Origin: Enchytraeus crypticus | Lineage: Eukaryota > Annelida > Clitellata > Enchytraeida > Enchytraeidae | DNA length: 64,000 nt | Direction of reading: 5' to 3' | Assembly: GCA_905160935.1 (NCBI GenBank) | Contig: CAJHZI010000350.1 | Coordinates: 62,001-126,000 of the forward strand | Shown: positions 10,648 to 63,684 of the stretch, in pieces | Layout of the letters: the number at the start of each line of letters is the position of its first letter | Position numbering within the stretch: the stretch's first letter is position 1 | Program-made: the position numbers and the translations under genes | Notes under the pieces: generated by a model | Seen by the model: only the letters and a program-made list of their open reading frames with translations | Told to the model about the DNA's origin: nothing | The model's database searches: none

Positions 10648-13600
10648 GTATATATAATATGCCTACATGCATGTACATGTAGGCCTGTACATTAATCACC
10701 TACTTCTGCCTCGTTCTCTTAGACCCAATACATTTTTTCTTAAACCATCGTCTGAGAGATCGTCTGGCCACAAGAGGTACTCTGGGTGACTGACATATCC
10801 GCTGTTGTAGAGGACATTCGAAATACTGACACCCGCAGAGGAGCACCACTCAGAGCTCATGTCAGTGATGTAAGCCACTCTACTCCACGAGTACGTCTCG
10901 AACAGTCTGCCAAACGCTACACCGAACGACTCGTAGGAACCTGTGACCCTGATGACCGTGTTGAACCTGGTCTTATCGCTCACAAGAACGTCGAAACAGT
11001 AGACGGGCAGCATCAACAGGTTGTAGTAGCTGGCTATCTGGGCCGATCTCTCGCATGCTAGGAAAATAGTGAAAGTAACAGTTGTTCAACTTGTATACAT
11101 GTATACATATGTAAATGTATACATGTATACATATGTACATGTATACATGAATACATGTATACATGTAGTACTGCATGTATACATGTAGCGCTGTTGTCTG
11201 GTCAACGCTGTCCTGCTCTTATCGACACTGCCAGTGTTGCTCGCTGATCTCGTGAACTAAATAATTAAAATGATCATCACTGGTATTAACCATTTAACAA
11301 AGTATTAGAGTAGAAATTTACCAAGGATATAGGGCGTAAAATTTTGGCGTCTATTGGTCATGGTCAAACGGTAAATTGACGCTAAAAGGTACCAAGGTCC
11401 AAGGTACATATTCATACTCAGAGTCTGCTTTCGCTTTCCGTTAAGAGCAATCTATAGATCAACAAGTTAATTGTTTCACAAATGGCCTAACCTTATGCAG
11501 CCTATAGCTTGGAGGAAAATATGGCTTCACCATTAAGTAGGATCGGAGGAAGACAAAAGAAAAACTACTGAAGCTATATTTTATCTTGATGAAGTTTTCG
11601 TTAGGAATACTCTTCAAAATGGATTCCATTGATTCGTTGATTGAGGGCACTCATTGCTAAGTCGGTATCAAATTAGTTGAGCGTGGTATTCAATTCCCAA
11701 TGCAGATCAGTAGGTTCAGGGTTTAAATTCAGTGATCGTCTCACTGATATGCGTTCGAGAGAGAAAATGAGTCTAAATTAGGGCCTTCCGGCTGAATCAG
11801 AACATGTATGAATATAGATTTACAATTTCGATAAAAGGAATTTCATTTTGGCAGAACATAGAAACACGTACAATGTATGCTAAACGTTAACTCTTATTAC
11901 TGTATGATATTAAAAGAATTACTTGCTGAGCATGGAGGTCCGATGATGACATCTATACTGTGCTCGACTATTAACTTCAATATTGGGTCGACTGCGTAGA
12001 GAATGTCGCAACGGTTGATTGCGTAGAAGTAGCTGTGCATAATATGCTATAATTAAAGAATTTAATGCTTTTTATTTACAATATAATTTGCATACTTTAT
12101 AATTAGCATTTGCTTTAAAATACAACCATAATTTAAATTTTATTTAAATTAAAGTACAGTCTAAGATTTACGGAATCTATCAACTTCTTCACTTCGATAA
12201 ACACTTCCTGTGCATCATAATGTCACTTTTAATAAATAACAATAAAAAGAATTCGCAATTTGAGATTTACAGAATATATACTATTCTACACTTCTAGACA
12301 AACATTCCCACTATTGCAGAATGTTAAATTAGTTCTAAAATTACTTTAAAAGACAGTTAGTTTGAAATTAGTTTGAAATAAAGAATTTGTGTAAAGTTTT
12401 CAATGAAGAGTCATTTTAAACAGTCATGAATCGACTAAATTGCTCTCATAGATTAATATAAAAAAGACCAAGGTTATGAGAGTGTCCAATAATAAAGATG
12501 AAGTTAATATCGCAACAAATGGTACGAAATTGGAACAGGTAAGGAGTTTCAAACATTTGGATCATACTATAACCGATGATGGGAAATGTGAGACGGAAAT
12601 ATGCAGTAGGATTGCACAAGCAAAAGCGGCCTTTGGTGATGGAAAAGAACTATTAACAAAAAGTCTAAAGAAAGACACAAAGATAAAAGATAGTGAAAAC
12701 TTTGGTTTGGACCACGCTATTGTATGGATGTGAAACATGGACCTTAAGGAAGGAAGATATTAGGAAACTGGAGGCATTGGAAATGTGGATTTGGAGAAGA
12801 ATGGAGAGGATTAACTGGACTCAAAAGGTTACAAATGAGGAAGTCCTGGAGATAGTTGGCACAGATAGACAGTTGATAAATGTATTAAGAAATAGGAAGA
12901 AGAGATGGATAGGACACATTCTAAGGGTGGATGGTCTATTAAAAGTGGTCATAGAAGGTAGAATGGAAGGAAAAAGAGGCAGGGGCAGGCCGAGATTAGG
13001 TATGTTAGATGATTTAAAAACCCACTCGTATGTGGAAATGAAGAGGAAGGCGAAAGACAGAGAAGAGTGGAGGCGTTATGTACCATGGGCCTGCCAGTAG
13101 GCAGTGCACTAAGAGAGATAAAGAAATACTACAATGAATATCTTAGTCAGTAGGGCATTTACAAACTGGATCATAGAATTAAATAAATTTGACACTTTCG
13201 TTAAATGATTAATAAAAGCAAACGAATAAGCCCAGTGGCTTATTGATGATGTGGCTATTGATGATGATATGATATGATTGATGATATGACTTGTGGCTGA
13301 TGTGGCAATGATATTGATCATTGCCAGTGGCAATGTCGGTAAGATATTCGACTGCGAATCTTTCGGATATGTGCTGGTTCAAATCCTCGGCTCTCCCGTC
13401 ACTGAACTCGCTTTCGAGAGATGACACTGACGTTAAAATCGGTTGTACAGCTGTACCATTGCAGAAGTAAGTCGAGCTTGGCTATCGATAAGAGAAACTA
13501 AATAACCATTCACTAAGCAAAGAGATTTTTACTAAAATAATTTATCCAAAGAAGTCTAAGACAACTACATTTAGCGTTATTACAACATTTCACCGGTTCC

Positions 13601-47740: not shown

Positions 47741-50700
47741 TAACGACGGCTAGTGAAGAGATAGGCTTCATCTTGAGTGTGTCTGTCATGAAGTGGACGA
47801 CACGACAGTCTGGTTCGCCCCCCACAGACACGAGGAAGCCTATGACGATGTCGAGAGTGGCCAGCAGGTCATTCACCTCTGGTAACTTCTGCTGCACGGC
47901 CGAGGTCACCTCGTGTGCGTTGGGCAGCGGCACCTGCATTGAATGATATGCTAATTGATAGATCTGAGAGTAAAATCTCGGACATTCACTGGACTGGTTA
48001 AACGGAAAATGGACTAAATTGCCTAACGGTTTAAACATGCGGTATTAAAAAAGTGATAGATATCAACGTAGTTGATCATTTCACTATAATGCGTGTTTAC
48101 TTTTTTTTATAGAAACTCTAATTTCTAATAAATCTACATTAAACAGCTATGTAAATTAAATCAATTACAATTGATCAACTCTAATCAAATAGGGGATTGA
48201 CTGATGTTGTGATGTGAGACAGAGAGGATTGAGACAGTTAATTCGTATCCCGACCCTGGTTGAACGGGGATTCAAGGGAAGTTGATGATGATGACGGTAA
48301 TTGATCAACTCTTAAATGTACAATGAATGGAAACGAGGAAAATTTAAAAAAAAGAAACGCATTATAAATTGAAATGTGAACAAAATAAAATGTTTAACAA
48401 ATTTTAATAAAGAATAAACTAAAATTGAATTGAATGAAGCTTAACACTGGAAATGAAATACAATTGCATTATGTAGAAGAGACTTAAATGTAGAACATAA
48501 ATAATTAAGGAAAGGGAGTTGAATTTCAAACATGTAAAACAATTTAAATTATAAATCAAAGTGAAATATAGAACTAATATAAAGGGCGCGGAGTTTCAAA
48601 CCTCTGTAGCGCGCGTCATAACAAACTTAAGTAACGTCGGAGCTTATTAGCATGGGTGTTTAATAGGGGTAGTGGTTAGTATGGGTGCAGGTTAGTATGG
48701 GTAGTGGTTAGTAAGGGTGCTGGTTAGTACGGGTAGTGGTTAGTATGGGTGCTGGTTAATAGGAGTGGTGGTTAGTATGGGCGATGGTTAGTAGGGGTAG
48801 TGGTTAGTATGGGCGATGGTTAATAGGGGTAGTGGTTAGTATGGGTGCTAGTTAATAGGTGTAGTGGTAAGTATGGGCGATGATTAATAGGGGTAGTGGT
48901 TAGTATGGGTGCTAGTTAATAGGTGTAGTGGTTAGTATGGGCGATGATTAGTAGGGGTAGTGGTTAGTATGGGTGCTGGTTAATAGGGGTAGTGGTTAGT
49001 ATGGGTGCTGGTTAATAGGGGTAGTGGTTAGTATGGGTGATAGTTGGGCTAACATGTATGCATACTGCGTGCCGACAGCCATTAATAGACTTATGTAAAG
49101 CGTTCAATAAATGCAATGTGTATGGTATTTACTTCAACGAAAAAGGTTAATAAAAATGTAATTAATATACTCGAAAATTGGTTTACAAAAAGTGGAACTT
49201 CTGTTAATTGGACTGGATATGTTTCTCGATATGTTCCTCTTTTGTCTGGGGTTAAGCAAGGTGGAATACTGTCGCCCATTCTATTTGCACTTTTTGTAGA
49301 CAACGTCTTGGATATACTGAATCAGTCAAGCTATGGTTGTCGAATAAATTTCCGTTGCTGTAATAGTTACATGTACGCAGACGATTTATAAAATAAAATA
49401 CCTTGGACTAACGATTGTAAGTGCAAAATATTTCAAATGTGAATGGCACGAAACCAGAGGAAAATTTTACACCTCGGCTAACATTATATTGGGCAGATTG
49501 GGGACGACAGCTTCAATCGATGTTCTCTTAAAGCTAATTCGTATGCAGGCAGTGCCAGTTCTACCTTATGGTATTCCAGCTGTACAACTGAATAAATCAG
49601 AAATGGAAAGCTTTTCTAAGGCACACAACAGTGTCGTCTCAAAGATTTTCCGTACATTTGATAAAAATAATATTTTATATTGTCAGTGGTATTGCGGTTT
49701 TTTGCCATTTGATTTATTATATGAACACCATAGGTTTACATTCCTGCATAATTTAATAATTAATGATAAGTTAAGTGCTAAGCAGCATTTGGACTCTCCC
49801 GATTACAATGATTATTTAAAAATTAAAAGTAAAATCGCCATAGATAGCAATGACTCTTTGTCGAGTATTCGTTATAAATTCTGGCGCTATTTTAAAAATG
49901 CTCTGTTTTAACTATTGTGCAGTTTGTGAAAAATTGAAATTGTTAAACTTTTATATGAACTTTTTTATATGTATTCTGTTGTGTCACGTTTTGCAATGTA
50001 ATTGCATCTGTGCGTGATTTCTGCCATGAATTGGTGAATAAAAGATTATATTGAACAAACCCCCGGAGTGTTGAAAGATAATCTTAAACTCCGCTCCAGC
50101 TACTATCTGCCTAATAAATAGGCAGTGACTGACTACTTACTAATAATGGAGGAAAGAGGAAGTAAAGAACACTACAAAAAACAGAAACTTAAGCAAGAAT
50201 AATTTGTAGTCACGTGCGTTATGTCATTTGTCAAATTAGATTAACAAGAAAAAGTGATACATACTGCTAGAAATCTGACGCGTGAAGAATAATTTCCTGA
50301 TAAAATCACAAAGACTTACCTGTTTGAATTTTACAGATGCATTAAATGAAAGATATACCTAATGCAATGAGTAATTCAGAAATTAATTGACCTCATTGAA
50401 AGATAATTTAAGTAATGTAAAAATGAATAAGTTAATTTAAGAGAATAATTAATTTGTAATTAGTTGTTTATTTTTTATCAACGACATTCTGCAATGTGTT
50501 ACCTGTTGAATTAGGGCTCTTAGCTGTACGAGAGCAACAGCATTGGTGAAGTCTTCACGAAATGCGATGAAGTTGATCTGCATGGAACACATAAAGTCTA
50601 AATAGGTATCACAATATAATCTTATGTCAAATTCTACTTAAGATACATATACAGGGTGCGCATTAAAAAAATATCCTCCTAGACAATTACGATAGCTTAG

Positions 50701-52718: not shown

Positions 52719-55700
52719 TATATAATACAATGTCGCTCTCAATGTCAGGATCATGAATAGTGACAGTGAAAACATGGTCAATATAACAGAAAATATAAAA
52801 ACTGAATTTCTACGTATTTCAATGTTTAAACATCAGGCTGTTACGCTCGTGTACCACAAACCTGGAAGTCCAGTCTGGGTCGACCTCGAATGAACCTCTC
52901 GACTATCTGCGCCTCCACCTCCTTGAAGTCGTACTCGACCTTCGTTCCACTGCCGACCTCCAGCGAGTAGCTGCAGTTAGCGAGCACGATGGGCTGAAGG
53001 TCACGCTCCTCGTGGAAGGCCACGAGGTGGGCGTGGTTAGCGTCCTGAATACTCACCATTGTCTCCAGTCTGTTTAACACGTATTTAATTACCTGTAGTG
53101 TTTATTCCCACATTACCTGCAGTGTTTAATATTACATTACCTGCAGTGTTTAATATTACATTACCTGTAGTGTTTAATATTACATTACCTGTAGTGCTTA
53201 ATATTACATTACCTGTAGTGTTTAATACCACATTACCTGCAGTGTTTAATATTACATTACCTGCAGTGTTTAATACCACATTACCTGCAGTGTTTAATAT
53301 TACATTACCTGCAGTGTTTAATATTACATTATCTGTAGTGTTTAATATTACATTACCTGCAGTGTTTAATATTACATTACATGTAGTGTTTAATATTTCA
53401 TTACCTGCAGTGTTTAATATTACATTACCTGCAGTGTTTAATATTACATTACCTGTAGTGTTTAATATTACATTACCTGCAGTGTTTAATATTACATTAC
53501 CTGTAGTGTTTAATATTACATTACCTGTAGTGTTTAATATTACATTACCTGTAGTGTTTAATACCCTGTAGTGTTTAATACCACATTACCTGCAGTGTTT
53601 AATATTACATTACCTGCAGTGTTTAATATTACATTACCTGCAGTGTTTAATATTACAATACCTGCAGTGTTTAATATTACATTACCTGTAGTGTTTAATA
53701 TTACATTACCTGCAGTGTTTAATATTACATTACCTGTAGTGTTTAATACTACATTACCTGCAGTATTTAATACTACATTACAACTAATATTTAATACTAC
53801 ATTACACCTAGTATTGAAATGTAGTGTTTAATACTATATTACCTGTAGTGTTTAATACTATATTACCTGTAGTGTTTAATATTACATTACCTGTAGTGTT
53901 TAATACTATATTACCTGTAGTGTTTAATACTACATTACCTGTACTGTTTAATTACTACATTACTCCAAGTGTCTAATACTAGTGCAGCGTTTAATACTGC
54001 ATTACTAATTATGAAGGAATGTACGACTAGTGAGAAGGTAACATAAGAAACAGTGAAATAAACTTACAATTAAATAAAGCAAAGTAGGAACAATACAACG
54101 AGAAAGAGACTTTTGTTTGGTAAGTTTGCTGTACTCCTCCATGAAGTCGTTCTGGAGCTCGGTGAGATAGTAGAGGAGAGCCACCGAGCACAGACCCCAG
54201 CCCCTCATGGACGGCAGTAGAACAGACAGTCTCGTGTCTCCATCGATACGCTCAGGAATGTAGTCCCTCGACAGCTGCTGTCCTTTGAACGCTGTGTCCA
54301 TAACAGATGAGTCATTAGAGATTACGTTATGTTCTCACGTGACACGTATAGGTAGACAGGATTGTTTCTCAGGGAATGACGCCCCTGCCCAGTATATGTT
54401 AGTCGAAGCTGAGGAAGGCACAGGGGGCTTACCTTGTCATAAGCAGAATCACCAGAATTATAATAATAATGGTATATCTAAAGGAATGTTATGGATGATT
54501 TAAAGACTCATTCATATGTGGACATGAAGAGGAAAGCGGAAGACAGAGAAGAGTGAAGGCGCTATATACCATGAACCTGCCAGTAGGCAGTGCACTAAGA
54601 GAGAGAGAGAAAGTGACATGTTTAGAAGTGTGCTTTTTCTTCTAGCTGCCCGGCTCTGTACGCACTGGTGTATATGCGCGTCAATGTGTGTGTATGACCT
54701 TGATTTAGTATTGCTCCACTATTATTTACCCTGTGTTTCTGGGAATTTTTTATTTTATTTCTTTTAAATGTTTATTTCTATTTGTATTTGTCAGTGATTT
54801 GGTGTTGATGCTGAAATAAACACATATCTCTCTCTTATTCTCTTCTGCCACTGACATCGCTTTCGAGTGAGGAAACTGACGTTAGTATTTGCTTTACCAG
54901 CTTTATATATTTAATCATAATACGCTCTTAGATCATTTTTTTCGATTCCTCGATGCAATTTCACTCGAATGCAATTAGCACTCAAATTATGTATATCATT
55001 TGTAGTACTGCATCTCCTAATACCTCTTCAGATACGATTATCAAGGTCTTGACTCTTGAGACAACCTTTAAACCTGTGAAACTCTGAAAATTGAGTATCA
55101 TCTAATAATTGGTACTTTGAGATAGCGATCAAATTCTTTTCAATAAATTTTTGTGTCCAACTAACTCGGGCACAATCTTACAAAAATTTCACTCGTAATA
55201 TTGACTATAAAAAATCACTCATCTGCCGTTTTGTTTTGTTCATATTCGACAACTACGACAAAAGAGCTGCTTCATGAAAAAGCTGGATGAATTAATAATT
55301 AGCCCGTACATGGAGAAATTATGTACTGGTGATAATTTGTACAATCTTATCTCGTCATAGCCCCTTTAGCGAAAGTCAATGACGTTAAATCTACAATTAA
55401 ATAAAGCAAAGTAAGAACAATAGAATGAGACTTTGTTTGGTGAGTAAATATAAAAATAAAATTGAATAAGTAGTTACTTCTTTATTAAATCTTCGCCAGT
55501 GACGAAGTCGGTAAGATACTCTATCGTGGATCAGTTTGTGCGAGGTTCAAATCCTGGGCTCGCCCGTAACTGATATCGCTTTCGAGTGAGGAAACTGACG
55601 TTAATCTTAGCTGTAGCAGCTGTGCATTGATTTATCGATTGATAATTCAGACAAGTACGTGCACTGACCATATCCTTCAAGACGCTTATGAACGTAACTC

Positions 55701-57574
55701 CAGACAGTAGAGAACTGGTCGATGAGGTTCTGCAGCTCATCACGGCTCTCTTCTGTCATCAACAAAACATATTAATAGTTTACCATCAACAAAACTCTTC
55801 TAGAAGTTCTACCTCTCTAGTTTACCATCAACAAAACTCTTCTAGAAGTTCTACCTCTCAGGACTAAGCCATGGCACTATCGGTTAGGTACGCAACGGCG
55901 AATAAGAACATACAGGTTGAAATTTTGATTTTAATTGATGTATGAAAATGCTGTTGTTTTAACTAAGATTTTAATAGAATTAATTGCTATTTGTATAATT
56001 TTATTCGATACTCAATTACGCACGAACAATTGTTGTCGTAGTTTAGTTTTCATATTTCTTACATATTTCCGGTGTGGGTTCTTGTAAGTGCCGTTAAGTC
56101 CTTTTTTAAGTCTTTAAAGTCTGCAGCAGTATTTTGTCAACCCTGAAAACTATGTGTTGATGGGTATATCAAAATAAATAAAATAAAAGTTGTAAATAGA
56201 ACTATATAAATTTTAACTATAACTATATAAACGTTGTAAATAAAACTATATAAATAATATTGGACACCATATCTTTACTAGCAGTGCTCTCACGTTGTAA
56301 AATATCAAGGCTATAGCTGTGATATATTATAACGAAATAATAAATACATAAATAAATAATGGAGTTATCAACTTATGTAAGAGGTAATTTCTTCGATATA
56401 TTCCATACTAATAAATGCAGAGAAATGAGCGAATCAATCTCACCGTCAGTCTGTTGTAGGAAGGTCTTCAGTGTGGCTGTTGTGGCCTCGGCACTGTCGA
56501 TGCTGCGGTTCAGCCTTTGCAGCAGTATTTCGTGTAACTTAATCACACTGGGCAGCAACCTCAGTGCTCTTAACTCGGGTTCCTGCATACACGACACAAT
56601 AGCTTGCACTGCTTAATATCAGCGATCATAACTATTGATATTGACTTTCGCGCAATGAACTTCCGCGTGAGATTCAGCATTAAATAGTAGATATCAATTA
56701 ATTAAAATTAATTAAAAGTCCGGTTCTTCACTAGAATGTGATGTCAGGAATGGCGTGACAGAGGAATAGGGAATACTACTTCTACTTTTAACTTAATTCA
56801 CGCTTTAAATACACATGCAAGGTTTATGCCTTGCCTATAAATACGACATTGAGTGTCACTCAGTAATTCATAATCCCAGCTAATATCTAATCAGCGCTTA
56901 AGAATTTATGCGGAACTTAAAACTACAGAGCACTGAGGAGATCTATCTGTTATTCCGCAGCCAAACAATGAGCTAAAATCCAGTGTTCGCTTTATCATTT
57001 ATACACTTGCGATAAAGAAATGTTACACTAATCTGAGCTTTATCCATTTAGAACATTGTAATAAATAGTTCTATTATATAATAAATAATAGAAATCAATA
57101 ACCACTTATTATTTAATATGGTTCTACAGCTATGACGGCTTCAATGCACACATACTGGCTCTGAGTTTCAAGCCTAAATCAAAAATATTGTAAAGCTAAC
57201 GTCGGTTTCCTCACTCGAAAGCGATGTCAGTAACGGGCGAGCCCAGGATTTGAACCTCGCACATACTGATCAGCGGTCGAGTATCTTACCGACTTCGCCA
57301 CTGGCTCTAGACGGACAATTAGAGCGGAAAATGGAGCGACATCAACTAGCAAGTGAACCTATCACAACGCCTGCACCATTATCAGACACAAATTGTTGCC
57401 AAGATATATAAGCTAACACCAATAGTGGTTTCATGATAATCACAAGTGTCTTATTCCGTTCTTATAATTTCTGTATAACTTTTGGTAGGTTTATTCTCAT
57501 GCTTGAATGTTCTAACACGGTTCAATGACTTTTATTGATATTAGAAGAAGTCAACATACAAACTATTACAGAGA

Positions 57575-61688: not shown

Positions 61689-63684
61689 GACAGAGGAAGA
61701 GAGAGTGAGAGAGAGACAGAGAGAGACAGAGACATACAGAGAGAGAGAGAGAGAGAGAGAGTGAGAAAGAGAGAGAGCGAGAGAGAGAGAGAGAGAGAGA
61801 CCAGGTTGAGGCAGGGAGGCGCTCCTATCTATCAGCTGATGCAGAAGTATCATGACGTCATCTCTACTGCGTCCTATCGCTCGTGCTGTCGCCTCCACAT
61901 CCTCTCTGACGTGCTGCCACAGGAAGTTTCTCACCTGATTGTCTGCCACACGTGGTGCTATCAGCTCACCTACCTCCTGCACAACAAACATCAACCAATC
62001 CACGCGTGGTGCTATCACGTGGCGCTATCAGCTCACCTCTCTCCTGCACCACAAACATCAACCAATCCACGCGTGGTGCTATCAGCTCACCTATCTCCTG
62101 GACCACAAACATCAACCAATCCACACGTGGCGCTATCAGCTCACCTATCTCCTGAACCACAAACATCAACCAATCCACACGTGGTGCTATCAGCTCACCT
62201 ATCTCCTGCACCACAAACATCAACCAATCCAAGCGTGGTGCTATCAGCTCACCTATCTCCTGCACCACAAACATCAACCAATCCAAGCGTGGTGCTATCA
62301 GCTCACCTATCTACTGTACCACAAACATCAAGTGAACCAATCCAAGGCTTAAATAACACAGGCTTCAACAACTAATGTTATCTTCCTTCCTTAAGACCCA
62401 TGTTTCACCTCAATATAATAGCATGGTCCAATCCAATCCAAGGTTTCCACTATCTTTATTTTTGTTTCTTTTTAGACAAAGATAAAAGCAAGGTAAATAT
62501 TATAAAAGTACAAAGTTAAAAGTTATTTCCTATTACCGAAGACGTCTTTTGCTTGTGCAATTCTACTGCATATTTCAGTCACACATTTCCCATCATCAGT
62601 TAAAGTATGACCCAAATATTTGAAACTCCTTACCTGTTTCAATTTCGTATCATTAATTGTGATAGTAACTTCACCTTTATTATGGGACACTCTGATCACT
62701 TTTGTATTTTGATGTTAATCTTCATGTGGGTAAACAGGATTGTTTTCTCAGGTAATGACGGCCCTGTCTAGTAAATGTTGTTCGAAGCTGAGGAAGGCAG
62801 AGGGGCCCACCTCATCATGAGCAGAATCCCAAAAGAATAATGGTATATCAAAAGGAATGCTATATAATATTTAAAGATTCACTCGTATGTGGACGTGAAG
62901 AGGAAAATGGAAGATATAGATGAGTGGATGCGTTATATATCATGGACCTGCCAGTAGGCAGTTCACTAAGAGAGAGAGAGAGACATACTCATGCCATATT
63001 ACAATGCCGTATCATTCAGGCTATCCATTATATCTATCCATTATATCATTCATTATCTTCTGCAGTCCAGTCTCGCTGCCCGCTACCATTCCTTGGCCAT
63101 CCGCAAATCGCATATCTTGTAACAATTTTCCTCCTAACATTATTTCTTCTTCGATGTCTTCCATGGCTTCCTCCATCGCTGCCTCAGCGTAAATGTTAAA
63201 CTGCGAAGGCGAAATGCTCAACCTTGCCTTAATCCACGTTCTTTTTCACCTTCTTCTGAGTATTCTAGTTGGATTTTGATTACTGCTCTTTGATTCATGT
63301 ACAAGTTTAAAATTAGTCTTCTATCTCTCCAGTCAATTCAAACTCTCTTCAAGATATTTATCATCATTATCCAATAAATCCTGTCAAACGCCTTCTCAAA
63401 GTCCACAAAGCATTCGAAAAAGTCATTTCCATGTTCTAAAATGTATATTCATATGAATATTCATGCATTCATTACATGTTTATTCATATCAATATACATG
63501 AATACATCATAACTGAATGGGAGTATATGAATATACCTGATTGTGATCAATGGATCCCAGATACATGGACATATGAAGAAGAGCTCTCATGAGAGCCACT
63601 GAGGCAGGACTGAGGCCTCTCTCAGGCACAGCAGTCCATGGACTGGCGCCACCTAATATGTGACCAGGTGCAGTGTTATCAGCT
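43341..63684 (-). CDS. RNF213: RNF213 (mysterin)-type E3 ubiquitin ligase, C-terminal region (14 exons, 5' end off window)
   Basis: Fourteen minus-strand exons, 63684 to 43341, join in consistent phase into about 653 residues ending at TAG 43343-43341. RNF213 is a very large cytosolic protein with a dynein-like AAA motor, a RING, an RZ zinc finger and a helical C-terminal domain. It ubiquitinates proteins and bacterial LPS and acts at lipid droplets and pathogens. The visible part begins just after the expected RZ finger ([10 protein letters not shown]) and covers the whole C-terminal domain. Conserved blocks in family order are [163 protein letters not shown] and [16 protein letters not shown] could not see AAA, RING or RZ exons. 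They should lie to the right. Introns carry many SINEs and minisatellites. Confidence 0.93.
43505..43765. repeat. CAAT/CAGT simple-repeat block
   Basis: Imperfect 'tcaatcaatcaaccagtcag' repeats directly upstream (gene sense) of the last RNF213-type exon acceptor. Confidence 0.85.
43942..44078 (-). repeat. SINE-A copy
   Basis: All landmarks on the minus strand with scattered substitutions (gatgtcgataagatattcga, ggttcaaatcctgggttcgc). Confidence 0.83.
44285..44372 (+). repeat. Repeat E copy with (GAT)n end
   Basis: 'gacagagaggatttgagaca', 'attcgaatcccgaccctaga' and 'caagggaagatgatgatg'. It matches 48205-48300 and, inverted, 24300-24350. The 'attcgaatcccg' resembles a tRNA B box. Confidence 0.65.
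44373..45009. other. RNF213-type intron; palindrome at 44576-44615
   Basis: Arms 44576-44592 and 44599-44615 are exact 17-bp complements with a 6-nt spacer. Nothing else was recognised. Confidence 0.6.
45010..45295 (-). mobile_element. Retroelement C-terminal domain, copy 2 (3' end only)
   Basis: It matches 5910-6210 closely (accccggt...gtaaagaacc, gctgaatc-ccgcccggcta, agcctttgccaaagaaaaga, accaccggaacaacttc-t). On the minus strand it encodes the end of the same domain (VPVAIET-like) and the 3' UTR. It is 5'-truncated. Confidence 0.8.
45464..45562 (-). repeat. SINE-D / tRNA-Ile-like element
   Basis: The minus strand reads TGGCATAGAGTTGG (A-box-like), an anticodon arm CTTGC-CTGATAA-GCAAG giving GAT (Ile), and GGATTCGATATCC (B box). 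The acceptor stem does not pair, so it is a tRNA-derived repeat or pseudogene rather than a working tRNA. Confidence 0.6.
45722..46095 (+). repeat. Module D plus RTE-type 3' end
   Basis: The longest module D: 'cgtgttgtgctctgatcatt', 'cgtacgtaagaggcgactaa', 'ctcaccatgaaatattttcc', 'ggaaaccacctcagaagcca' and 'gaacctgccacttggcagtg', then (GA)n. The last part is the RTE-like 3' end, so module D looks like the body of a non-autonomous RTE partner. Confidence 0.7.
46191..46347 (-). CDS. RNF213: RNF213-type exon 13 (of those visible)
   Basis: Acceptor tgtacag, phase 0. It encodes [40 protein letters not shown] and RLTVAQDP. The low boundary (donor G|gtcagg) is chosen for phase. Reading on gives [13 protein letters not shown] before a weak gttcta. 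Confidence 0.85.
46365..46510. repeat. (CAAT)n block
   Basis: Imperfect tcaatcaat repeats directly upstream (gene sense) of exon 13. Confidence 0.85.
46764..46850 (-). CDS. RNF213: RNF213-type exon 12
   Basis: Acceptor actatag, donor CAG|gtaact, phase 0 at both ends, 29 codons: [28 protein letters not shown]. The Q-L-K-H....LW motif is conserved in the family. Confidence 0.86.
47190..47300. repeat. 33-bp minisatellite, about 3 units
   Basis: 'acatcacgagataatcac' with 'acgacatcacgagc' repeats three times with few changes. Confidence 0.85.
47305..47740. repeat. (GA)n tract with embedded SINE-A
   Basis: About 430 bp of GA-rich simple sequence, interrupted at 47546-47633 by SINE-A. In gene sense it is a CT tract that starts 4-5 bp after the donor of exon 11. 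Confidence 0.93.
47546..47633 (-). repeat. SINE-A tail inserted in the GA tract
   Basis: Minus-strand B box and tail (ggttcaaatcctgggctcgc, tgtcactgacatcgctttcg). GA repeats flank both sides. Confidence 0.83.
47745..47933 (-). CDS. RNF213: RNF213-type exon 11
   Basis: Acceptor caatgcag, phase 0 at both ends, 63 codons. It encodes [40 protein letters not shown] and MTDTLKM. The V-G-F-L-x-x-x-GG-x-P block is strongly conserved. The donor is probably GTC|gttagt, directly followed by a CT repeat. Confidence 0.88.
47955..48118 (+). repeat. SINE-B body, 5'-truncated
   Basis: 'gagagtaaaatctcggacat', 'cactggactggttaaacgga', 'agtgatagatatcaacgtag' and 'cactataatgcgtgtttact' match the SINE-B body without the tRNA-like head. 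It begins about 20 bp upstream of the exon 11 acceptor. Confidence 0.8.
48205..48303 (+). repeat. Repeat E copy
   Basis: 'gagacagagaggattgagac', 'aattcgtatcccgaccctgg' and 'attcaagggaagttgatgat'. Confidence 0.65.
48625..49045. repeat. 32-bp minisatellite, about 13 units
   Basis: Unit: 'gtggttagtatgggtgctgg' plus 'ttaataggggta'. It is G-rich on the plus strand with repeated GGG or GGGG runs, and directly precedes a LINE fragment. Confidence 0.92.
49090..50062 (+). mobile_element. LINE RT fragment with internal deletion at YADD
   Basis: It reads [38 protein letters not shown] and SYMYADDL, then a stop. Coding resumes in another frame with [40 protein letters not shown] and [20 protein letters not shown]. 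About 100 residues of thumb are missing exactly after YADDL. The 3' end 'ggtgaataaaagattatatt' is typical of LINEs. Same strand as the RT but opposite to the host gene. Confidence 0.86.
50063..50502. other. RNF213-type intron; nothing recognised
   Basis: AT-rich. Confidence 0.4.
50503..50577 (-). CDS. RNF213: RNF213-type exon 10
   Basis: Acceptor catgcag, donor CAG|gtaaca, phase 0 at both ends: [25 protein letters not shown]. Short and less conserved, but position and phase fit between exons 9 and 11. Confidence 0.72.
50652..51404. mobile_element. M3: foldback Tc1/mariner-type element, about 250-bp TIRs
   Basis: The ends CAGGGTGCGCATTAAAAAAA and complement are flanked by TA. Inverted similarity runs 50652-50909 against 51150-51404. 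The core at about 51000-51110 retains [14 protein letters not shown], a mariner transposase motif with Asp changed to Asn in QQD. The element is non-autonomous. Confidence 0.85.
51405..51805. repeat. TA arrays between M3 and M4
   Basis: (TA)n at 51405-51427, 51474-51513, 51715-51739 and 51770-51805, separated by plain sequence. Confidence 0.85.
51806..52567. mobile_element. M4: foldback element with duplicated right arm
   Basis: The ends CAGACAGGGGCAAAAAA and CAGACTGGGGCAAAAAAT (complement) are next to TA. The left arm is 51806-52030. The right side carries two successive arm copies 180 bp apart (52192 and 52372, both 'ccttgtta-aattgatttt'). Only a small centre (about 52030-52190) is unique. 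No transposase was recognised. Confidence 0.8.
52568..52722. repeat. TA array
   Basis: About 155 bp of (TA)n, with CACACACA at its end, starting exactly at the TA target of M4. Confidence 0.95.
52862..53069 (-). CDS. RNF213: RNF213-type exon 9
   Basis: Acceptor ttaaacag, donor CAG|gtttgt, phase 2 in and 0 out. It encodes [54 protein letters not shown] and RGRPRLDFQ. The E-R-D-L-x-P-I/L-V/I-L-x-N-C and F-x-x-G-x-P-R-L motifs are very typical. Confidence 0.93.
53085..53975. repeat. 24-bp minisatellite, about 34 units
   Basis: Unit 'ttacctgcagtgtttaatat' plus 'taca'. It starts about 20 bp upstream (gene sense) of the exon 9 acceptor. Since 24 is a multiple of three it yields spurious open frames on both strands. 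In gene sense each unit contains CAG|GTAATG. Confidence 0.95.
54111..54291 (-). CDS. RNF213: RNF213-type exon 8
   Basis: Acceptor ggacacag, phase 2 in and 2 out. It encodes [40 protein letters not shown] and [16 protein letters not shown]. The G-L-C-x-x-A-L....L...N motif is conserved. The donor AA|gtctct is weak but phase-perfect with exon 9. Confidence 0.9.
54335..54620 (+). mobile_element. Non-autonomous RTE derivative, copy 1
   Basis: 'acaggattgtttctcaggga', 'gaagctgaggaaggcacag' and 'ataatggtatatctaaagga', then the RTE-like tail 'gatttaaagactcattcata', 'gaggaaagcggaagacagag' and 'cagtaggcagtgcactaaga', (GA)n. The same deletion structure is at 62727-62988. Confidence 0.8.
54843..54908 (+). 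repeat. SINE-A tail fragment
   Basis: 'ctgacatcgctttcgagtga' to 'ctttaccagcttta' only. Confidence 0.78.
54909..55492. other. RNF213-type intron; nothing recognised
   Basis: AT-rich spacer. Confidence 0.4.
55493..55625 (+). repeat. SINE-A copy
   Basis: 'gccagtgacgaagtcggtaa', B box 'ggttcaaatcc' near 55543, and the full tail. It ends about 45 bp after the exon 7 donor in gene sense. Confidence 0.85.
55669..55752 (-). CDS. RNF213: RNF213-type exon 7
   Basis: Acceptor gatgacag, donor G|gtcagt, phase 1 in and 1 out: [20 protein letters not shown], then HKRLEGY. Fits the family's L-x-x-x-I-x-x-F-x-x-x-W segment. Confidence 0.82.
55780..55860. repeat. Direct duplication, about 38 bp
   Basis: 'tttaccatcaacaaaactct' with 'tctagaagttctacctct' occurs twice in a row. 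Confidence 0.85.
55861..56443. other. RNF213-type intron; nothing recognised
   Basis: A short direct repeat 'actatataaa' lies around 56200-56250. Confidence 0.4.
56444..56582 (-). CDS. RNF213: RNF213-type exon 6
   Basis: Acceptor gtatgcag, donor G|gtgaga, phase 0 in and 1 out. It encodes [39 protein letters not shown] and QQTD. The 'E-x-E-L-x-x-x-x-x-L-P-x-I/V' start is a hallmark. Confidence 0.92.
56583..57189. other. RNF213-type intron; decayed SINE-A tail at 56717-56760
   Basis: 'gtccggttcttcactagaat' and 'gtgatgtcaggaatgg' look like an old SINE-A tail on the minus strand. Nothing else. Confidence 0.4.
57190..57312 (-). repeat. SINE-A copy
   Basis: Minus strand: 'gccagtggcgaagtcggtaa', 'actcgaccgctgatcagtat', the B box and the tail. 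Confidence 0.87.
57568..57790. repeat. (GA)n tract
   Basis: About 220 bp of GA-rich simple sequence with A- and G-rich interruptions. Confidence 0.95.
57791..58094. other. RNF213-type intron; nothing recognised
   Basis: An (AATA)n run at 58074-58092 abuts the exon 5 donor. Confidence 0.45.
58095..58306 (-). CDS. RNF213: RNF213-type exon 5
   Basis: Acceptor cgtgcag, donor AGG|gttatt, phase 1 in and 0 out. It encodes [38 protein letters not shown] and [12 protein letters not shown]. The N-P-x-x-x-x-x-Y start and the W-x-x-R-x-R-x-T segment match the family. Confidence 0.92.
58307..58984. other. RNF213-type intron; nothing recognised
   Basis: No repeat family or exon was identified. Confidence 0.4.
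58985..59260 (+). mobile_element. RTE-like LINE, decayed fragment split by SINE-A remnant
   Basis: 'gaggatatcagcaaactaga' and 'agcgctggaaatgtggatat' correspond to [13 protein letters not shown]. 'gactcaaatttccaatggag', 'agacagacagttgacaaatt' and 'gagctgaactggtcaca' follow the tail. Positions 59060-59110 resemble a SINE-A tail on the minus strand. Confidence 0.55.
59394..59451 (-). CDS. RNF213: RNF213-type exon 4
   Basis: Acceptor tttgtag, donor G|gtgagt (consensus), phase 0 in and 1 out: [20 protein letters not shown]. It links exon 3 to exon 5 in frame. Confidence 0.85.
59766..59892 (+). repeat. SINE-A copy
   Basis: 'ggagccagtggcgatgtcgg', 'gaggttcaaatcctgggctc', 'gctttcgaatgaggaaactg'. 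Confidence 0.87.
60198..60292 (-). CDS. RNF213: RNF213-type exon 3
   Basis: Acceptor aacggcag, donor CAG|gtttct, phase 1 in and 0 out: [32 protein letters not shown]. The R-x-x-W-E-x-x-x-x-x-x-V-I pattern is family-typical. It is short, but it repairs the phase between exons 2 and 4. Confidence 0.86.
60383..60705 (+). mobile_element. RTE-like LINE 3' fragment
   Basis: 'gactcaaaaggttacaattg', 'gaagaagagatgtattggca', 'aaaaagaggcaggggcaggc' and 'ccatggacctgccagtaggc', 'agtgcactaagagag'. A fairly young tail, truncated at the WTQKVT region. Confidence 0.85.
60706..61570. other. RNF213-type intron; nothing certain
   Basis: Positions 61335-61440 may be a decayed tRNA-like SINE (agctggtggttgttagctag, gatcgaaactcg) but cannot be firmly assigned. 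Confidence 0.35.
61577..61800. repeat. (TA)n followed by (GA)n, abutting exon 2 donor
   Basis: (TA)n at 61577-61634, then (GA)n at 61647-61800. In gene sense the CT-repeat begins at the first intron bases (G|gtctctctct). Confidence 0.95.
61802..61976 (-). CDS. RNF213: RNF213-type exon 2 (of those visible)
   Basis: Acceptor ggtgcag, phase 0 in, G|gtctct phase 1 out, 175 nt. It encodes [40 protein letters not shown] and [11 protein letters not shown]. FLxxH, DxE and LLHxxL correspond to the helices after the RZ finger. The first nine codons and the acceptor are repeated in the adjacent minisatellite. An alternative acceptor at 61935 would remove 14 codons. Confidence 0.88.
61951..62341. repeat. 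54-bp minisatellite, about 7 units, copying an exon start
   Basis: Units at 61951, 62004/62018 (with a 14-bp extra piece), 62072, 62126, 62180, 62234 and 62288 are spaced 54 bp apart. In gene sense each holds 'tgatgtttgtggtgcag' followed by codons for EIGELIAPR. Eighteen codons per unit keep the frame open across most of the array. Confidence 0.95.
62380..63440 (-). mobile_element. RTE-like LINE, interrupted by non-autonomous copy
   Basis: Minus strand. The RT core is at 63440-62994: 'atcctgtcaaacgccttctc', [15 protein letters not shown] and [20 protein letters not shown], with FADD changed to FADG. The thumb is at 62726-62380. The two halves are separated by an inserted plus-strand element and join at 'ttcatgcc'. 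Confidence 0.82.
62727..62988 (+). mobile_element. Non-autonomous RTE derivative, copy 2 (nested)
   Basis: It has the same order as 54335-54620: 'aacaggattgttttctcagg', 'gaagctgaggaaggcagagg', 'aataatggtatatcaaaagg', 'atatttaaagattcactcgt' and 'ccagtaggcagttcactaag', (GA)n. TCATG at 62722-62726 and 62989-62993 looks like the target-site duplication. Confidence 0.85.
63537..63684 (-). CDS. RNF213: RNF213-type exon 1 (of those visible)
   Basis: Acceptor gtgcacag, donor CAG|gtatat, 148 nt, phase 2 in and 0 out. It encodes [39 protein letters not shown] and YLGSIDHNQ. In the family this segment comes directly after the RZ finger, so that finger should be in the next exon, beyond 64000 or hidden at the edge. 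Confidence 0.9.

Follow-up and report, generated by a model that had tools for sequence, protein, structure and literature searches.

The window analysed here is a stretch of 64,000 nucleotides (nt) of DNA from Enchytraeus crypticus (G000:C267:62001-126000, so that a contig coordinate is the window coordinate plus 62000). Its minus strand carries exons of an RNF213 gene, one of which begins within a minisatellite of seven tandem units that repeats the 3' splice site together with the start of the exon. A total of 507 residues joined from exons of the window matched solved RNF213 chains with an expectation value (E) of 2e-48, spanning residues 4589-5238 of the 5247-residue chain 9g08, and open reading frame (ORF) pieces located farther up the contig match earlier parts of RNF213 (E of 5e-183, 2e-55 and 3e-28). 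Thirty-seven exon cores were placed on contig C267, several of which have no significant match alone and were positioned by their order within a larger match. The RNF213 orthologue appears intact across the portion covered. The features at the junction in question are as follows, in window coordinates, with lengths in base pairs (bp) and a slash marking a splice boundary:

63537..63684, minus strand: upstream RNF213 exon A, with donor CAG/GTATAT in phase 0 and an inferred acceptor
61952..62342, minus strand: minisatellite of 7 tandem units, covering the splice acceptor and exon start of RNF213
62289..62342, minus strand: unit 7, 54 bp, at the outer edge, the most diverged unit
62073..62288, minus strand: units 3-6, 54 bp apiece, of which units 5 and 6 are identical
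62006..62072, minus strand: unit 2, 67 bp, in which a 13-bp local duplication shifts the frame of the upstream acceptors
61952..62005, minus strand: unit 1, taken as the real boundary, with acceptor gtttgttgtgcag/GAG and first exon base 61976
61802..61976, minus strand: RNF213 exon B, with donor CCTG/GTCTCT inferred from the reading phase

The junction from exon A (…SIDHNQ) to exon B is in phase 0 and aligns without gaps to the RNF213 chains, and the donor of exon B runs directly into a (CT)n tract.

Anatomy of the acceptor array

When the array is cut at a shared motif, six units measure 54 bp and one, unit 2, measures 67 bp, giving spacings of 54, 54, 54, 54, 54 and 67 across 62342-61952. 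Tandem Repeats Finder reports a period of 54 bp with 5.8 copies, 95% matches and a score of 551 at 62018-62331, and a second row with a period of 67 bp at 61949-62084. Together with the homology to RNF213, these results bear out the first-pass annotation, which had described a 54-bp minisatellite duplicating an RNF213 splice acceptor and exon start. In gene sense, each unit consists of 29 nt of intron end followed by 25 nt of exon start, to which unit 2 adds 13 nt through a local duplication near its 3' end. In the common form, the intron end closes with ggattggttgatgtttgtggtgcag and the exon start reads GAGATAGGTGAGCTGATAGCACCAC, while the acceptor of unit 1, gtttgtTgtgcag, differs by one base from the common gtttgtggtgcag. 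The same annotation had assigned to every unit the acceptor and the codons for EIGELIAPR found in the real exon; this layout of the units holds, but the real exon begins with EVGELIAPR, and units 2, 3, 4 and 7 deviate (ERGELIAPR; ccag; tcag; tacag then a stop). The mean number of differences to the other units is 8.5 for unit 7, 4.8 for unit 1 at the opposite edge, and 3.3-4.5 for the interior units.

In the searches made, the array has a single location in the assembly. When the 391-bp array was compared at the DNA level with the 524-Mb assembly, very common words being skipped, only this array was returned (E of 6e-202), and the exact 25-letter unit pattern has two matches, both within it. 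Since tandem arrays are often misassembled, and one lancelet globin array was judged aberrantly assembled in the draft by its own authors in a passage of PMC3087553, the repeat number or the 13-bp insert might be wrong through collapsed or expanded reads. We consider such an artefact highly improbable: most units differ from each other, and several independent arrays of this kind lie in the same RNF213 gene.

Directly upstream of the array in gene sense, at window 62379-63439, lie remnants of non-long-terminal-repeat retrotransposons in mixed orientation, pieces of which match other copies, e.g., near 12450, 16775, 17121 and 54351. An origin of the array unit from this neighbouring remnant was considered and rejected, as the likeness of the remnant to other copies ends at 62379, outside the array.

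Strength of the repeated acceptors and predicted consequences of their use

Acceptors were scored with a matrix derived from hand-chosen acceptors of the same RNF213 gene, for which 30 leave-one-out scores were obtained. The acceptor of unit 1, left out of the matrix, scores 14.0, at the top of the 30 (median 6.9). Among the decoys, i.e., the acceptors of the six other units, units 2, 5 and 6 score 12.7, unit 4 scores 11.6, unit 3 scores 10.9 and unit 7 scores 8.7, so that five of the six outscore all but four or fewer of the 30 gene acceptors. Of 3,656 AG dinucleotides on the gene strand of the window, only 0.03% reach the score of unit 1, 0.11-0.22% those of units 2-6, and 1.1% that of unit 7. 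The decoys are good acceptor sites, slightly weaker than unit 1, and the earlier proposal that the copies may act as competing acceptors agrees with their predicted strength on the gene's own matrix.

Translation into exon B is open from the acceptor of unit 1, whereas from each of the six acceptors upstream of it translation ends at a stop. The acceptors of units 2-6 reach a common stop after 25 to 97 codons because the extra 13 bp duplicated in unit 2 put them out of frame (67 mod 3 = 1); for unit 7, the first codon is TAG, an immediate stop. The units had been described as 18 codons long and mostly in frame, which is correct for units 2-6 relative to one another, as these are open and mutually in frame; the 67-bp length of unit 2 nevertheless puts them out of frame with the real exon. 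The in-frame repeat residues that had been anticipated from changes in repeat number are thus not produced in this assembly, and an in-frame decoy product would be possible only for an allele lacking the 13-bp insert.

Each unit also carries AG/GT, as ATAG/GTGAGC or a one-base variant (7/7 units), confirming the donor-like site noted in the first-pass annotation. On a matrix of 22 donors of the gene, this site scores 8.3, inside the range of 0.2-11.4 spanned by the matrix donors themselves. Every unit could accordingly be regarded as a ready donor-acceptor pair, and splicing might turn the array into short new introns or into microexons; passages of PMC4974935 describe how a new intron of the potato RdRp gene arose from a duplicated intron-exon structure combined with a cryptic GTAAG. 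Within the 54-bp units, the distance from donor to next acceptor is 47 nt, far under the shortest of the RNF213 introns that were located (408 nt, a figure covering a part of the introns of the gene), which makes the 7-nt microexons suggested earlier unlikely. Exons of 7 nt are, moreover, hard to define and break the frame, and we attach very little credence to the birth of introns from this array.

From the sequence, we infer that splicing uses the acceptor of unit 1: the complete exon follows this copy, its site scores highest, and the protein alignment crosses the junction without a gap. In classic splicing work, a duplicated acceptor is reported to be used more readily when exon sequence follows it. 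We regard the following account as likely, and hold it with good confidence: a stretch of 54 bp across the 3' splice site of a single RNF213 exon would have been duplicated in tandem, the array would then have been extended on the intron side, and splicing would use only unit 1, the copy joined to the full exon, leaving the other six as intronic decoy acceptors whose occasional use would result in a premature stop. In a gene rich in minisatellites, the ordinary turnover of repeats may generate such arrays, which would then be retained wherever splicing can cope with them.

Other arrays at splice sites and their placement

In addition to the acceptor at 61976, two further RNF213 splice sites lie inside arrays of this kind, and seven sites adjoin one. 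The arrays spanning these two sites, three arrays at probable exons and two of those adjoining acceptors are as follows:

C267:160255-160856: 39/53/130-bp array repeating the acceptor and the first 12 nt of another exon
C267:130839-131020: 30/42-bp array repeating an exon end and the donor TTTTACC/GTAAGT
C267:147890-148098: donor-side array with CTAAAG/GTTTGT-like donors, at a probable exon
C267:210123-210280: donor-side array with GAGAG/GTTTGT donors, at a probable exon
C267:155650-155768: array that may repeat the acceptor side of a probable exon
Window 55776..55859, minus strand: 42-bp repeat in two copies that stops 24 nt short of the exon E acceptor (exon deduced from its phase, with first base 55752)
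Window 53088..53981, minus strand: 24-bp minisatellite that stops 19 nt short of the exon G acceptor (first exon base 53069)

The exons at 160 kb and 131 kb lie in order within RNF213 matches and are individually weak, with 2.5 bits for the sequence that follows the beginning of the 160-kb exon and 4.6 bits for a stretch including the 131-kb exon. In the 131-kb donor array, translation continued beyond the real donor ends at a stop five codons later. The probable exons at 148 kb, 155.7 kb and 210 kb of the contig look coding, gave no convincing match to RNF213, and were excluded from the counts. At five further acceptors, an array ends 17-24 nt upstream, and three of these arrays bear a weak likeness to the acceptor and exon start they adjoin (P of 0.009 for the repeat at 55776..55859, 0.03 for the minisatellite at 53088..53981, and 0.04), while two show none (0.12 and 0.53); when corrected for five tests, only the array with P 0.009 stays near 0.05. 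The minisatellite at 53088-53981 comprises about 37 units, many of which read CTACAG/GTAATG or CTGCAG/GTAATG, i.e., an acceptor fused directly to a donor.

The 160-kb acceptor array provides a parallel to that at 61976. Fourteen of its copies match the pattern, all 13 other than the exon-adjacent copy meet a stop, and the exon-adjacent copy scores best among the five variants scored. Strong decoy sites that lead to stops in both arrays (6/6 and 13/13) could be viewed as a rheostat, in which copy number sets the extent of decoy use, the stop-bearing transcripts are degraded, and RNF213 output is tuned between alleles. We find this reading unlikely. The exon-adjacent copy scores best in both acceptor arrays, chance alone gives stops in most intronic reading, a single 13-bp duplication is enough to explain the closed frame of five copies out of six at 61976, and the lancelet arrays in Adh and TnC, termed mirages, make no aberrant messenger RNAs according to a passage of PMC3902484. 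The broader proposition, in which the splice-site arrays of the RNF213 gene are length-variable decoys leading to a stop, the fraction of transcripts degraded depends on repeat number, and a gene of innate immunity is thereby tuned from one individual or somatic cell to another, appears to us very unlikely.

The placement of the arrays was compared with chance over the gene region C267:105000-224500, where minisatellites with a period of at least 15, excluding simple repeats, occupy 9.1% of the sequence. Fifty-five splice sites (30 acceptors and 25 donors) were placed exactly, and expectations were obtained from circular shifts; the sites were hand-picked, with coordinates typed by hand and accurate to within a few bases, and several distances were tried. 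Exon-edge bases lie inside arrays at 3/55 sites, against 5.0 expected, while an array abuts the intron side within 30 nt at 7/55 sites, against 0.75 expected. Since arrays fill 9.5% of non-exon bases and only 0.7% of exon-core bases, truncation at exons would account for most of the abutting excess. For exon-core edges, 2/74 lie inside arrays (6.7 expected) and 8/74 within 30 bp of one (8.6 expected). Special targeting of splice sites by spanning arrays is not supported by these counts (2/74 and 3/55, both under expectation), and, given the 9.1% cover and the 3/55 sites inside arrays, none is needed. We conclude that no special mechanism is required, with a mild unexplained excess remaining at acceptors.

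Several observations weigh against our account of one used copy, six silent decoys and ordinary turnover. The scores of most decoys come close to that of the real site, and if scanning started from a branch point upstream of the array, the spliceosome would encounter the decoys first. Unit 1, itself an edge unit, exceeds the interior units in divergence only slightly (4.8 as against 3.3-4.5). An array base lies 25 nt or less upstream of 7/30 acceptors, where 3.1 were expected (P 0.016, the lowest of six distances tried, for which P ranges from 0.016 to 0.17). Short-period arrays contain none of the 55 sites (2.3 expected) and abut 5/55 within 30 nt (0.8 expected, P 0.005). Plain chance placement does not fully explain these last two excesses. 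On balance, we still consider the array most likely to be a tolerated by-product of a minisatellite-rich genome.

Relation to known systems and further observations

The RNF213 array, consisting of seven 54/67-bp units that each span the intron-exon boundary of a real gene, is best classed by analogy with the lancelet mirages, which passages of PMC3087553 and PMC3902484 describe as minisatellite-like duplications of intron-exon boundaries in the Adh3, TnC, globin and PGBD5 genes. According to the same passages, mirages vary in length and seem not to disturb regular splicing. As far as these descriptions reach, lancelet and RNF213 arrays have in common that the unit spans a splice site, that the copies contain AG/GT, and that both acceptor and donor sides are affected. 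In the mirage of the globin gene BflGb6, interior units are described as homogenised and the edges as excluded or diverged (PMC3087553, in part), to which the identity of units 5 and 6 and the clear divergence of the outer unit 7 may be likened, while unit 1 at the opposite edge lies close to the interior units. Unlike the lancelet cases so described, the RNF213 arrays occur in an annelid, several in one gene.

The AG/GT inside the duplicated segment, which includes a ready acceptor, is also shared with intron gain by tandem duplication, as described in passages on ATP2A1 and on potato RdRp (PMC4974935), the potato gene being one in which a boundary duplication did create a new intron. The RNF213 array differs from those descriptions in its seven copies and 47-nt spacing. 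Among annelids, the earthworm metallothionein genes are described in part of PMC12783039 as having intronic minisatellites, duplicated fourth exons that are missing from the transcript, and GTYAGK donors, which the GTC and GTT donors of RNF213 recall. There, in contrast to the RNF213 array, the minisatellites lie in the first intron, and that part of the paper does not present them as made of splice-site copies. Among the open-access articles listed in searches on minisatellites at splice sites, tandem repeats at intron-exon boundaries and intron gain, no title or abstract opening named an annelid case of this kind. Whereas the name mirage belongs to the lancelet cases in the sections of PMC3087553 and PMC3902484 cited, here several such arrays occur in an annelid, within one very long gene, at acceptors as well as at donors. 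Each array represents a natural test of how the spliceosome chooses among near-identical acceptors, as well as a candidate start for intron gain or a boundary shift. From the placement statistics, it seems that a gene rich in minisatellites can acquire most of these features without a special mechanism.

Several inferred RNF213 donors are unusual, namely GTCTCT at 61802 and at 54111, GTTAGT at 47745, and GTCTGT near C267:152966. At 61802 and 47745, a (CT)n tract follows the donor almost at once, giving the impression of a microsatellite that grew out of it. Within the RNF213 region, G000:C267:155855-156235 holds an ORF with a coding minisatellite of VAQVEVAQMDVAQ-like repeats. Elsewhere in the assembly, a tRNA (transfer RNA) scan of the mitochondrial locus found none, and the mitochondrial contig C802 carries nad3, nad2, cox1, cox2 and cox3 in that order on one strand, read with genetic code 5, the genes other than cox1 being named by eye and nad1 falling outside the stretch covered. 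This gene order points to a probable annelid and lends no support to a lancelet as host. Passages of PMC2639372 describe nad3 between nad1 and nad2 as a derived annelid feature, and annelid mitochondrial genes as lying all on one strand.

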